From: a bacterium
GTDB lineage: Bacteria; Blakebacterota; Blakebacteria; Blakebacterales; Blakebacteraceae
Length of the DNA stretch: 5,682 nucleotides
Assembly: GCA_025774615.1 (NCBI GenBank)
Contig: JALGVQ010000178.1
Location: 1 to 5,682, forward strand
Direction: 5' to 3'
The notes below the pieces were generated by a model, which saw only the letters and a list, made by a program, of their open reading frames with translations, made no database searches and was not told the DNA's origin. This document shows positions 1,479-5,682 of this stretch, one piece after another. The position numbers and the translations under genes were made by a program. Each line of letters begins with the position of its first letter. Position 1 is the stretch's first letter.

Positions 1479-1488
1479 AAGGAGAGAG
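1479..1488 (+). promoter_or_regulatory. Shine-Dalgarno site of the CNB-ZIP gene
   Basis: AAGGAGAGAG ends one base before the ATG at 1490, with the AGGAG core about 6 bases from the start codon. The same GGAGAGAG-N-ATG arrangement precedes the gene starting at 3842, which supports both start calls. Confidence 0.75.
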
Positions 1489-1489
1489 T

Positions 1490-2851
1490 ATGGATCTGTC
1501 ACTTGCACTGACTGGGCTTTTCTGGGGGGCCGTGAGCGCGGCATCACTCCCGGTCGGGGCCATGCTCGGCCTATGGACGCGGCCCTCGCGCAAAGTCACC
1601 TCCCTGCTGATGGCGTTCGGCGGCGGAGCCCTTCTCTTCGCGCTTTCGATCGAACTGTTCGGCCATGCTGTCCATATCGCCGGTGACGGACACGGTCAGA
1701 TCAACCGCCCCGGGATCATACTGATAACGATCGCCGCGGCGGTGGTCGGGGGGCTCCTCTTTCAGGGACTCAATCACATCCTCAACAACCGGGGCGCTTT
1801 CCTGAGGAAAGACGCGCTTGTGAACAAGCGCGTCAGGGGTGAGAAGCGGCAACGGATGAAGCACCTCATGAATTGTCTCAGCAGGGTTCCGCTGCTGCAA
1901 TCCCTGCCACCCGATGAGATGATCCGGCTGGTACCGAAAGTGGGGAGCAGGAGTTACGACGAGGGGACATCGATCTTCTCCGAGGGTGATCCGGGTGACA
2001 GACTCTACACGATCGTTTCGGGTCTGGTAAGTATTCGGAGGAGTGGCGCCGGTGATGAAAACCCCGAGGTAGCCACCCTGGGCCCCGGTGATGTGTTCGG
2101 TGAGATCGCGCTCGTTTCCGATCAGCCGCGCACCGCGACCGCGGTAGCACAAACAGATATTGAAGTACTCGAGATCAGCAAACAGGACTTCGAGGATCTG
2201 CTCGACTCATCCCCCACAATGAGAGCAGCATTCCAGGAGGTCATAGAGACGAGGATCGGCGAACTCAGTGAGCGCCACACGGTTTCCGAGGCTGAGGCTC
2301 AGGAGTGGGAGGATCGGGCCGTCTCGCGTCTGCAGCAGGAACCGGTCAGCATCACGTCTGAAGAGATCAGGGAACAGGTGGATGCCCATTCCAGCGGGGC
2401 CGCTCTCTCTGTCTGGCTCGGTATCGCCCTCGACGGTATCCCGGAATCCCTGGTCATCGGGATGCTTGTCGTCACAGCATCAGCTGAGGGGACAGCGATG
2501 AGCCTGGCCTTCATCGCCGGGGTGTTCCTTGCCAACCTGCCTGAAGCGTTATCGAGCGCAGTGACGATGAAGTCCGGTGGGATGACGACCAGAAAGATTT
2601 TCTGGATGTGGATGTCCCTCTGCATCCTCACCGCCATAGGCGGCTTCTTCGGTACCATCATCTTCCCGGCACATCCCGAGGGTACGATCCTTTATATCCT
2701 CTTCGCCGTTGAAGGACTGGCCGGGGGAGCCATGCTTACGATGATTGCCGAGACGATGTTGCCTGAGGCATTCGAACAGGGTGGAGGAGGCTGGGTCGGA
2801 CTATCGACGCTGGCCGGTTTCCTGGCCGCGCTGGCGGTGAAACTGATTTAG
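1490..2851 (+). CDS. ZIP-like metal transporter with an inserted cyclic-nucleotide-binding domain
   Basis: A 453-residue inner-membrane protein. Approximate hydrophobic segments are TM1 4-28, TM2 36-60 and TM3 74-97, then a long cytoplasmic section 98-300, then TM4 302-330, TM5 335-360, TM6 369-391, TM7 398-421 and TM8 433-452: the 3+5 ZIP (SLC39) layout. Residues about 131-250 form a CNB domain of the CRP/PKA type, with the SEGDPGD turn at 164-170 and phosphate-binding cassette FGEIALVSDQPRTATA at 203-218, including the ligand-contacting Glu205 and Arg214. A charged, probably helical linker (about 251-300) leads to TM4. ZIP-like proline-glutamate motifs occur in TM4 (DGIPES, 315-320) and TM5 (NLPEA, 349-353), but the usual metal-binding histidines are absent. 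TM2 carries Glu55, His59 and His62. Inferred role: transport of a divalent cation gated by cAMP, cGMP or another nucleotide. The substrate is unknown. The gene is full length with a strong ribosome-binding site and ends 18 bp from the converging mutY-like gene. Confidence 0.85.
   Translation: MDLSLALTGLFWGAVSAASLPVGAMLGLWTRPSRKVTSLLMAFGGGALLFALSIELFGHAVHIAGDGHGQINRPGIILITIAAAVVGGLLFQGLNHILNNRGAFLRKDALVNKRVRGEKRQRMKHLMNCLSRVPLLQSLPPDEMIRLVPKVGSRSYDEGTSIFSEGDPGDRLYTIVSGLVSIRRSGAGDENPEVATLGPGDVFGEIALVSDQPRTATAVAQTDIEVLEISKQDFEDLLDSSPTMRAAFQEVIETRIGELSERHTVSEAEAQEWEDRAVSRLQQEPVSITSEEIREQVDAHSSGAALSVWLGIALDGIPESLVIGMLVVTASAEGTAMSLAFIAGVFLANLPEALSSAVTMKSGGMTTRKIFWMWMSLCILTAIGGFFGTIIFPAHPEGTILYILFAVEGLAGGAMLTMIAETMLPEAFEQGGGGWVGLSTLAGFLAALAVKLI
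1811..1834 (+). repeat. Perfect 10-bp-arm hairpin inside the CNB-ZIP gene
   Basis: GACGCGCTTG (1811-1820) and CAAGCGCGTC (1825-1834) are exact reverse complements around a TGAA loop. The hairpin encodes residues 108-115 of the transporter, in the cytoplasmic linker just after TM3 and before the CNB domain. It is GC-rich and should be stable in mRNA. It could slow ribosomes at a domain boundary, mark an old insertion junction, or be chance. Confidence 0.7.
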
Positions 2852-2869: not shown

Positions 2870-3712
2870 TCAGGGAGCAATTGCGACCAGCCCGTTCTCT
2901 CTGACCAGGAATCCTTCATCTTCCAGCGTGCCGAGGATTGATTCCACCTTCTTCCTCTCAACGGTTGCAGTTGAAAGCCGCTCCAGCAGTTCATCGGTGG
3001 TGAGACTCCCCCTATCCAGAAGGATCCTGAGGATCTGGCCGCGGATCTGTCTGTCCGAACCATAAAAAGGGGATTGCCGGCTGTAGTGAGCGCTCCTCAG
3101 GTTGGGGTTGCTGACTTCCTTTGCCAGCGCGCTCCCGTAGTCCATGAGGGCATAGTACCACTCGCGCGGTCCGCTGCTGTCCACCGTGGCCTCCACAAAG
3201 GGAAGGATCTCACGATCGGTCACCCTGTCCCGACCGGGGAAGAAAGCATGGATATAGACCCGGCGGATGTTCGTCTCGATGAAGACGACCGGTCTGTCGA
3301 AGGCGAAGGCCTGAAGAGCGCCAGCGGTCGCCGGGCCGATCCCCGGGAGGGTCAGAAGGAGGTCGTTCGTGTCAGGGATGATCCCGTCATGATCATCAAC
3401 CACCATCCGCGCGGTGCGATGCAGTGCCAGGGCCCGACGGTTGTACCCGAGACCCTGCCAGAGTGCCAGTACTTCCCCGGGGGCGGCATCCGCAAGCGAT
3501 CCGATATCGGGAAAGCGTTCGAGGAATGGCGGGTACTTCTCCTCGACTCTCGACACCTGCGTCTGCTGAAGCATGAACTCTGACACCAGGATCTCGTATG
3601 GATCCCGTGTTCTCCGCCAGGGCAGATCACGTCTGTGTTCACGATAGTAATCATGGACCGATTTCCGGAATGCCTCGATCGCGTGGGGTGTCAGATCGGG
3701 AGTTTGAACCAT
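2870..3712 (-). CDS. MutY-type A/G-specific adenine glycosylase, cluster-less variant
   Basis: A 280-residue HhH-GPD DNA glycosylase, expected to remove adenine opposite 8-oxoguanine in base excision repair. Its start matches E. coli MutY: LPWR at 30-33, SEFMLQQTQV at 44-53 with catalytic Glu45 (E37 of E. coli MutY), WQGLGYNRRA at 85-94, and the helix-hairpin-helix LPGIGPATAGA at 122-132. The following FIETNIRRV (144-152) has Glu146 where E. coli MutY has catalytic Asp138 (LDGNVKRV). After ALMDYGSALAKE (188-199) MutY normally has four cysteines holding a 4Fe-4S cluster; here there are none, and the whole protein has no cysteine. The C-terminal NUDIX-like domain that reads 8-oxoG is absent. 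Residues about 219-279 look instead like a winged helix (TTDELLERLS, then VESILGTLEDEGFL). The ATG has no clear Shine-Dalgarno site. The HhH-GPD fold is certain. The MutY specificity is likely but not proven. Confidence 0.85.
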   Translation of the reverse strand: MVQTPDLTPHAIEAFRKSVHDYYREHRRDLPWRRTRDPYEILVSEFMLQQTQVSRVEEKYPPFLERFPDIGSLADAAPGEVLALWQGLGYNRRALALHRTARMVVDDHDGIIPDTNDLLLTLPGIGPATAGALQAFAFDRPVVFIETNIRRVYIHAFFPGRDRVTDREILPFVEATVDSSGPREWYYALMDYGSALAKEVSNPNLRSAHYSRQSPFYGSDRQIRGQILRILLDRGSLTTDELLERLSTATVERKKVESILGTLEDEGFLVRENGLVAIAP

Positions 3713-5022: not shown

Positions 5023-5682
5023 ATGGAAAAAACCGATTTCATACGCGCGATCATCGCCGAAGATCTAGCCGGAGACACCCATGACGGCACGATCGCGACA
5101 CGCTTTCCGCCGGAGCCGAACGGCTATCTGCATATAGGTCATGCCAAGTCGATCTGTCTCAACTTCGGGATCGCGCTTGAACATAAAAAGGGTTCCTGCA
5201 ACCTGCGCTTCGATGACACCAATCCGAGCACCGAAGAGACAGAATATGTCGAGTCGATCATGGACGATGTGCGCTGGCTCGGTTTCGAGTGGAATGGGCC
5301 GGTACGGTACGCTTCTGATTATTTCGATCAGCTGTATGCATGGGCCCTCGACCTTATCGGGAAGAACCTGGCGTATGTTGACAGTCTGAGCGCCGAAGAG
5401 ATCGCTGAATACCGGGGCGGGTGGGATGAACCGGGACGGGAGAGTCCGCATCGGAGCCGCTCGGTCGAGGAGAACATCGATCTGTTCGAGCGGATGCGCG
5501 TCGGTGAGTTCACTGATGGAGAACATGTACTTCGCGCGAAGATAGACATGTCCTCATCCAACATGAATCTCCGTGATCCGATCATGTATCGCATCAGACA
5601 TGAATCCCATCACCGCACCGGCGATGACTGGTGCATCTATCCGACCTACGACTGGGCGCACGGGCAGTCGGACGCCATTGAG
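5023..5682 (+). CDS. glnS: Glutaminyl-tRNA synthetase (3' partial)
   Basis: Charges tRNA-Gln with glutamine in the cytoplasm. The first 220 residues are visible and the frame runs off the window; bacterial enzymes are about 550 residues. The class I catalytic domain is clear: [18 protein letters not shown] (26-43) with the HIGH motif at 37-40, LRFDDTNP (61-68) with the glutamine- and ATP-contacting Asp, WLGFEW (85-90), SDYFDQLY (98-105), AYVD (117-120), the [13 protein letters not shown] insert region (147-159), LRAKIDM (170-176), [11 protein letters not shown] (181-191) and [18 protein letters not shown] (203-220). Close match to E. coli GlnRS throughout, and the NLRFDDTNP and CIYP-YD blocks favour GlnRS over GluRS. 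The KMSKS-type motif and anticodon-binding barrels lie beyond the window. Its presence implies direct Gln-tRNA charging. Confidence 0.96.

Follow-up and report, generated by a model that had tools for sequence, protein, structure and literature searches.

Introduction

In ZIP carriers the scaffold, which also forms the dimer, is made of TM2, TM3, TM7 and TM8, and the moving transport domain is made of TM1, TM4, TM5 and TM6 (PMC9278863). Since TM3 lies in the scaffold and TM4 in the transport domain, the TM3-TM4 loop connects these two parts on the cytoplasmic side. In BbZIP of Bordetella bronchiseptica (GufA subfamily; 7z6n, 8ght, 5tsa), this loop, L(3,4), is a built-in zinc sensor with the motif DXXXPHXH that regulates uptake, and mutation of the histidines of the sensor raises uptake (PMC10256678).

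Among bacterial membrane proteins with a cyclic-nucleotide-binding (CNB) domain, the K+ channels MloK1 and SthK, in which this domain is C-terminal, are the closest functional model. A carrier of another kind, SLC9C1, is modulated by cAMP via its CNB domain (PMC6052114). It is an Na+/H+ exchanger of animal sperm in which the CNB domain acts together with a voltage sensor (VSD), and its membrane part is not a ZIP. In bacteria, a transporter and a CNB domain are joined in one protein in the MFS-CNBD fusions, which have the MFS fold and are mentioned in PMC10710835 as a domain fusion alone. Because SLC9C1 and the MFS-CNBD fusions exist, a cyclic-nucleotide-gated carrier would not be without precedent. 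We found no description of a ZIP-CNB fusion in the open-access literature, and the available part of a 2007 survey of CNB domains (PMC2246266; 30 families) names no ZIP family.

Here we describe a bacterial gene whose product is predicted to carry a CNB domain in the TM3-TM4 loop of a ZIP-type membrane protein.

Gene and predicted architecture

The window, that is, the whole stretch of DNA analysed (5,682 nucleotides), is one contig from an assembly that is fragmented into 324 contigs. The CNB-ZIP gene stands between a class V aminotransferase gene (3-1394, + strand), truncated where the contig starts, and a gene for a MutY-like DNA glycosylase on the opposite strand (2870-3712), beyond which lie genes for an asparaginase-2 family protein and a glutaminyl/glutamyl-tRNA synthetase. 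No match was obtained in a search of the plasmid database PLSDB. The features of the gene are as follows.

1479..1484, +, Shine-Dalgarno-like AAGGAG, 5 nt 5' of the ATG (read from the sequence)
1490..2851, +, whole CNB-ZIP fusion reading frame, 453 aa and stop (sequence read, ortholog coverage)
1496..1789, +, TM1-TM3, N-terminal ZIP part, residues 3-100, ending in the conserved NN(R)GAFLRK (model helices, BbZIP match, column comparison)
1862..2272, +, CNB domain in the TM3-TM4 loop, residues 125-261 (Pfam, structure match)
2096..2140, +, phosphate-binding cassette FGEIALVSDQPRTAT, residues 203-217 (FGEIAL...PRTATA at 203-218; invariant G204, E205, R214)
2252..2254, +, R255 of the CNB C-helix, aligned with MloK1 R348 (24/24 conservation, profile alignment)
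2273..2398, +, charged helical linker from the CNB C-helix to TM4, residues 262-303, with invariant W273 (model, alignment)
2399..2488, +, TM4 with D315-G-I-P-E319, at the positions of BbZIP H177/N178/E181 (model, column comparison)
2504..2575, +, TM5 with A348-N349-L-P-E352, at the positions of BbZIP Q207/D208/E211 (model, column comparison)
2588..2845, +, TM6-TM8, with T381, T422 and K451 at the positions of BbZIP E240, E276 and D305 (model, column comparison)

An earlier reading of the DNA letters (the sequence-only reading) had proposed a CNB domain within a ZIP-like transporter. The CNB part was borne out by Pfam, in which cNMP_binding matched residues 154-240 of the window protein with an E value of 1.7e-26. 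For the ZIP part the profile searches agreed only in part: a family profile of TM4-8 finds BbZIP at E ~1e-6, and the ortholog P0002, which is 53-55% identical to the window protein, scores 48.4 bits against Pfam Zip, above the curated cut-off of 35.1, whereas the window protein itself scores 32.4 bits, just below it. The Pfam scan found neither the HTH DNA-binding domain of CRP/FNR regulators nor an ion-channel family; TM helices come after the CNB domain, and the membrane part is that of a ZIP. Unlike MloK1 and SthK, the CNB-ZIP has no channel pore. A match to the NCBIfam family 2B encapsulin covered the CNB region alone, far below the cut-off, and was rejected.

We built an AlphaFold2 model on a 16-sequence family alignment (pLDDT 83.1, pTM 0.67). 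In this model the TM1-3 part has helices at 3-17, 19-30, 34-64 and 74-100, the middle begins with a helix at 108-130 and continues with the CNB barrel, the C-helix to 257 and linker helices at 267-281 and 290-299, and TM4-8 lie at 304-452. The three and five hydrophobic segments and the charged linker that had been read from the letters are found at 3-100, 304-452 and 262-303, respectively, and the linker is helical.

When the model was compared with known structures by VIA-align, the top eight matches were BbZIP entries, and cAMP-bound domains of the CRP family came next. The match to BbZIP 7z6n covered 242 aligned residues across model residues 1..453 (Z 24.1, 2.7 A), and residues 125-261 matched cAMP-bound CRP/GlxR/Clr over 137 residues (Z 17.6, 1.7-1.9 A). 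The best 50 matches of Foldseek were CNB structures only; the ZIP match appeared with VIA-align. Because the model matches both BbZIP and CRP-type domains, the two halves belong to a single ZIP fold, and the CNB domain has been inserted into the loop between TM3 and TM4. The structure prediction shows a ZIP fold of 8 TM helices, with the TM1/4/5/6 and TM2/3/7/8 bundles, whose cytoplasmic TM3-TM4 loop contains the CNB domain, as had been anticipated from the letters, and this predicted fold places the window protein in the ZIP superfamily (SLC39-like).

Distribution and origin of the fusion

The TM4-8 part was used to scan 84,980 species genomes. The scan found 17 relatives, all of which have CNB sequence N-terminal to TM4, in Myxococcota and other former Deltaproteobacteria, Gemmatimonadota, Delongbacteria, Bdellovibrionota, Pseudomonadota, Nitrospinota, Latescibacterota and Bacteroidota. 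The same architecture was present in all 24 full-length relatives, which come from at least eight phyla, and the insert was 201-208 residues long in 16/16 sequences measured. The insertion point was identical in every close relative, and the fusion is not unique to the window assembly, both of which the sequence-only reading had left to a survey of homologs. Of the two outcomes that this reading had named as refuting it, a membrane part unlike ZIP and a fusion confined to one assembly, neither was observed. Among 386 broadly sampled genomes, fused genes were present in nine, the genome of the window included (profile E <= 1e-46, frames of 431-487 aa). Below a score gap came three genes without the CNB domain (E 1e-28 to 1e-32, 248-274 aa), and then ordinary ZIPs. 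In two of the 17 relatives, both from fragmented MAGs (L014:2340-3053 and L026:4293-5429), the reading frame is broken within or ahead of the CNB domain; these breaks are probably assembly or sequencing frameshifts.

A tree was built on the membrane parts alone. Because the insert was removed before the tree was built, the grouping is independent of the insert. The CNB-bearing genes joined the three CNB-less sisters (100/99), distant from the GufA-type ZIPs, and a single branch split the CNB-bearing from the CNB-less genes (one change; branch support 87/81, recovered in 86% of bootstraps). These results show that the CNB-ZIP fusion had one evolutionary origin. Within the tree, the window gene pairs with Gemmatimonadota (99/97). 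G002, a genome of the same family as that of the window, encodes a CNB-ZIP protein that is 53-55% identical to that of the window and identical to that of L023, and its gene groups with Nitrospinota and Bdellovibrionota (98/89). Since the two copies fall in different parts of the tree, we consider horizontal spread of CNB-ZIP genes to be likely. The presence of the gene is also patchy (1/7 genomes in one order, 4/7 in one phylum).

The dN/dS value between the closest orthologs was ~0.05, and the inserts of L062 and L063 differ by 8 synonymous and 0 non-synonymous changes. Because of the 24 relatives with the same architecture and the purifying selection between close orthologs, the fusion is not a chance event.

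The nucleotide pocket

The CNB domains of the family are only 29-44% identical to that of the window protein, and G204, E205, R214 and the C-helix residue R255 are invariant in 24/24 full-length sequences. The cassette Glu of CNB domains contacts the ribose. The cassette Arg contacts the phosphate of cAMP in known CNB domains, for example as R209 of PKA, according to the 2007 survey (PMC2246266). By profile alignment, R255 (profile position 131) corresponds to MloK1 residue 348 in 2zd9 (end points: profile 132, chain 349), so that the cassette Arg and the C-helix Arg are common to MloK1 and the CNB-ZIPs. The match to chain 1u12, which is tied to the R348A mutant, ends at profile position 127, short of R255; wild-type MloK1 and R348A are listed together with the cAMP-bound and apo entries 1VP6 and 1U12 (PMC10761061).

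The intact cassette described in the sequence-only reading was thus found, and the CNB domain is, as far as its residues tell, a canonical one. An invariant pocket in a drifting domain is the pattern expected under selection for cyclic-nucleotide binding. We also considered a PKG-like specificity from the T/S after the cassette Arg and rejected it. Because bacterial channels share this motif (Table 1 of PMC2246266), we claim no ligand preference.

The membrane metal site and the TM3-TM4 loop

Column comparison with canonical ZIPs showed that BbZIP E181 and E211 are retained as E319 and E352, within the two Pro-Glu motifs noticed earlier (DGIPE at 315-319 and ANLPE at 348-352). Many other positions are changed: H177 to D315 and N178 to G316 in TM4, Q207 to A348 and D208 to N349 in TM5, D144 to N95, the M2 glutamate E240 to T381, the exit residue E276 to T422, and the entry residue D305 to K451, which is K or R in 20/22 CNB rows. 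D315-GIP-E319 and N349-xP-E352 are invariant in 24/24 sequences, as are many small helix-packing residues. The binuclear site of GufA/BbZIP, that is, HNxPEG and QNxPEG with the TM6 Glu, is absent from the window protein (H177D, N178G, Q207A, E240T).

Because several residues of the metal pathway differ from those of BbZIP, metal transport is not assured. Canonical binuclear zinc transport is not supported by these residues, and a single three-carboxylate site is plausible. The substrate is probably a divalent cation, not necessarily zinc, held by D315, E319 and E352. We infer the label of metal transporter, which the sequence-only reading had used, in the knowledge that several canonical metal ligands are substituted.

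The sensor of the BbZIP loop is also absent from the CNB-ZIPs: the window protein has N95, N99, N100 and G102 at the sensor positions, and the second sensor His is Gly in 22/22 CNB rows and in 3/3 sisters. BbZIP shares with the CNB-ZIPs the 8-TM fold and, as is predicted for the CNB-ZIPs, the TM3-TM4 loop as regulatory site, but its own loop has ~20 residues with the zinc sensor, whereas that of the CNB-ZIPs holds the CNB domain. Since two of the features that define the GufA/BbZIP subfamily, the binuclear site and the zinc sensor, are missing, the protein is to be placed outside that subfamily on its residues.

The CNB-less sisters (L041-L043) are the nearest relatives of the membrane part. 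They form a distinct ZIP subfamily with the remodelled motifs DGIPES and SNxPEG in TM4 and TM5, without the TM4 histidine, the TM6 glutamate or the CNB domain, and their own charged loop is short (~10-30 residues). To our knowledge, no substrate has been described for ZIPs of this type. Since the sisters share most of the metal-site changes, the site was remodelled before the CNB domain was inserted; and since they also have no sensor motif, this motif was lost before the insertion. The earlier proposal that the ZIP loop was replaced by a second-messenger sensor therefore holds as to the missing zinc sensor, but the insert did not displace it.

Proposed mechanism and alternatives

We think that the window protein is a cyclic-nucleotide-gated ZIP-type carrier, to which we give a probability of roughly 0.62. 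The ligand of the CNB domain would be cAMP or cGMP, supplied by the cell's own class III cyclases. It would sit on the physical link between the fixed, dimer-forming scaffold (TM3) and the moving transport domain (TM4). When the nucleotide is bound, the C-helix would close onto the pocket, and this closure would shift the linker with its invariant W273 and thereby move TM4. The shift of TM4 would alter the elevator equilibrium or the ease of sliding of the transport domain. In this way the state of the cell would control the carrier in place of its own substrate, which is the task of the loop in BbZIP; SLC9C1 would be a carrier working in a similar way. As to the sign of the effect, activation by the nucleotide is slightly more likely than inhibition.

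Other explanations have to be weighed against this. The CNB domain might be a structural or dimer-stabilising module, or a sensor of another ligand, that is indifferent to cyclic mononucleotides; the carrier would then be regulated otherwise or not at all. CNB folds that do not bind cyclic nucleotides are common, for example CooA and CprK (PMC2246266), the ZIP dimer axis runs along TM3, directly N-terminal to the insert (PMC9278863), and much of the CNB domain is poorly conserved. However, the same survey describes the canonical cassette as lost in CooA-like families, whereas here the ribose and phosphate binders E205 and R214, together with R255, stay invariant while most other residues drift, and we regard this explanation as unlikely. 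A carrier whose CNB domain serves targeting or turnover alone, and does not gate the transport cycle, appears very improbable to us: the loop does act via endocytosis and degradation in ZIP4 and IRT1 (PMC10256678), but these routes are eukaryotic, and the loop of the bacterial BbZIP acts directly on transport.

The ZIP part might also have become a membrane receptor, similar to a transceptor and no longer a carrier, in which occupancy of the remodelled metal site alters the CNB domain or another partner and the signal runs from the membrane to the cytoplasm. ZIP4 has been described as a transceptor (PMC13202269), and most of the M2, exit and entry residues of BbZIP are substituted in the CNB-ZIPs. 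On the other hand, D315, E319, N349, E352 and the small packing residues have been kept, the window protein has no enzymatic or DNA-binding output domain, and the CNB-less sisters share the remodelled site without an output domain, so that the function of the site is presumably independent of the CNB domain and most simply transport. We consider a receptor distinctly doubtful. Although the contig comes from a fragmented assembly, an assembly artefact or a chance recent fusion has practically no probability left and is refuted by the 24 full-length sequences, which form one clade under purifying selection.

If the cyclic-nucleotide-gated carrier is real, it would be the first cyclic-nucleotide-gated ZIP, and within a single protein bacterial second-messenger signalling would act on a metal-type carrier without a transcription step. 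The ZIP elevator could then be switched between two states by natural means, with a soluble ligand acting at the link of scaffold and transport domain, and cAMP or cGMP together with point mutants would make the question of how the ZIP loop controls transport directly testable. It would also point to membrane transport as an output of cyclic-nucleotide signalling in little-studied phyla. The chances seem to us evenly balanced that these genes form a ZIP subfamily not described before: the loop used elsewhere for metal feedback would now be a second-messenger sensor, and the elevator cycle of a metal carrier would be set directly by cAMP or cGMP at the hinge that joins scaffold and transport domain.

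Cyclases and gene neighbourhoods

Class III cyclases were present in 16/16 genomes with the fusion and in 29/40 without it (Fisher p 0.023, a value that ignores relatedness), which is a weak co-occurrence; the window genome has four class III cyclase matches. In two genomes of one genus (L062:4210-7606, - strand, and L063:2706-6096, + strand) the CNB-ZIP gene is immediately preceded, on its own strand, by a membrane HAMP-class III adenylate/guanylate cyclase gene, which ends 187 bases 5' of the fusion ATG. This genus has ~9-12 cyclases per genome, and by a rough estimate the chance of one such neighbour somewhere among the loci is ~10%. The adjacency is a single-lineage lead; tblastn showed no such adjacency in the other 25 sources examined. 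At L062, a stand-alone CNB gene is also found ~3 kb from the CNB-ZIP gene.

Neighbourhoods vary between phyla, and no gene partner was common to the ~20 loci checked. We therefore adopted no operon-based function. At L069:2725-5734, genes for the nickel regulator NikR and for cobalt/nickel uptake (CbiM) adjoin the CNB-ZIP gene, and in a Bacteroidota locus (L027:2-3855 and 5515-8567) the gene has RND/CusB-type efflux genes on one side and a NiFe hydrogenase operon on the other; these neighbours are hints of a link to nickel or cobalt.

Several other neighbours were observed. In Bdellovibrionota (L019:924-10443, L020:38-8622, L064:4742-9999) the CNB-ZIP gene lies inside a division and cell-wall cluster, flanked by genes for a penicillin-binding protein and a Mur ligase, and the L064 copy is near ftsZ. 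A class I Glu/Gln-tRNA synthetase gene is found a few kb from the CNB-ZIP gene in three lineages (window 5023-5682, L062:1948-4191, L066:1-864), which may be chance. In Nitrospinota (L022:1586-4091), genes for a DUF1538 membrane protein and a P-II-like protein lie immediately upstream of the CNB-ZIP gene.
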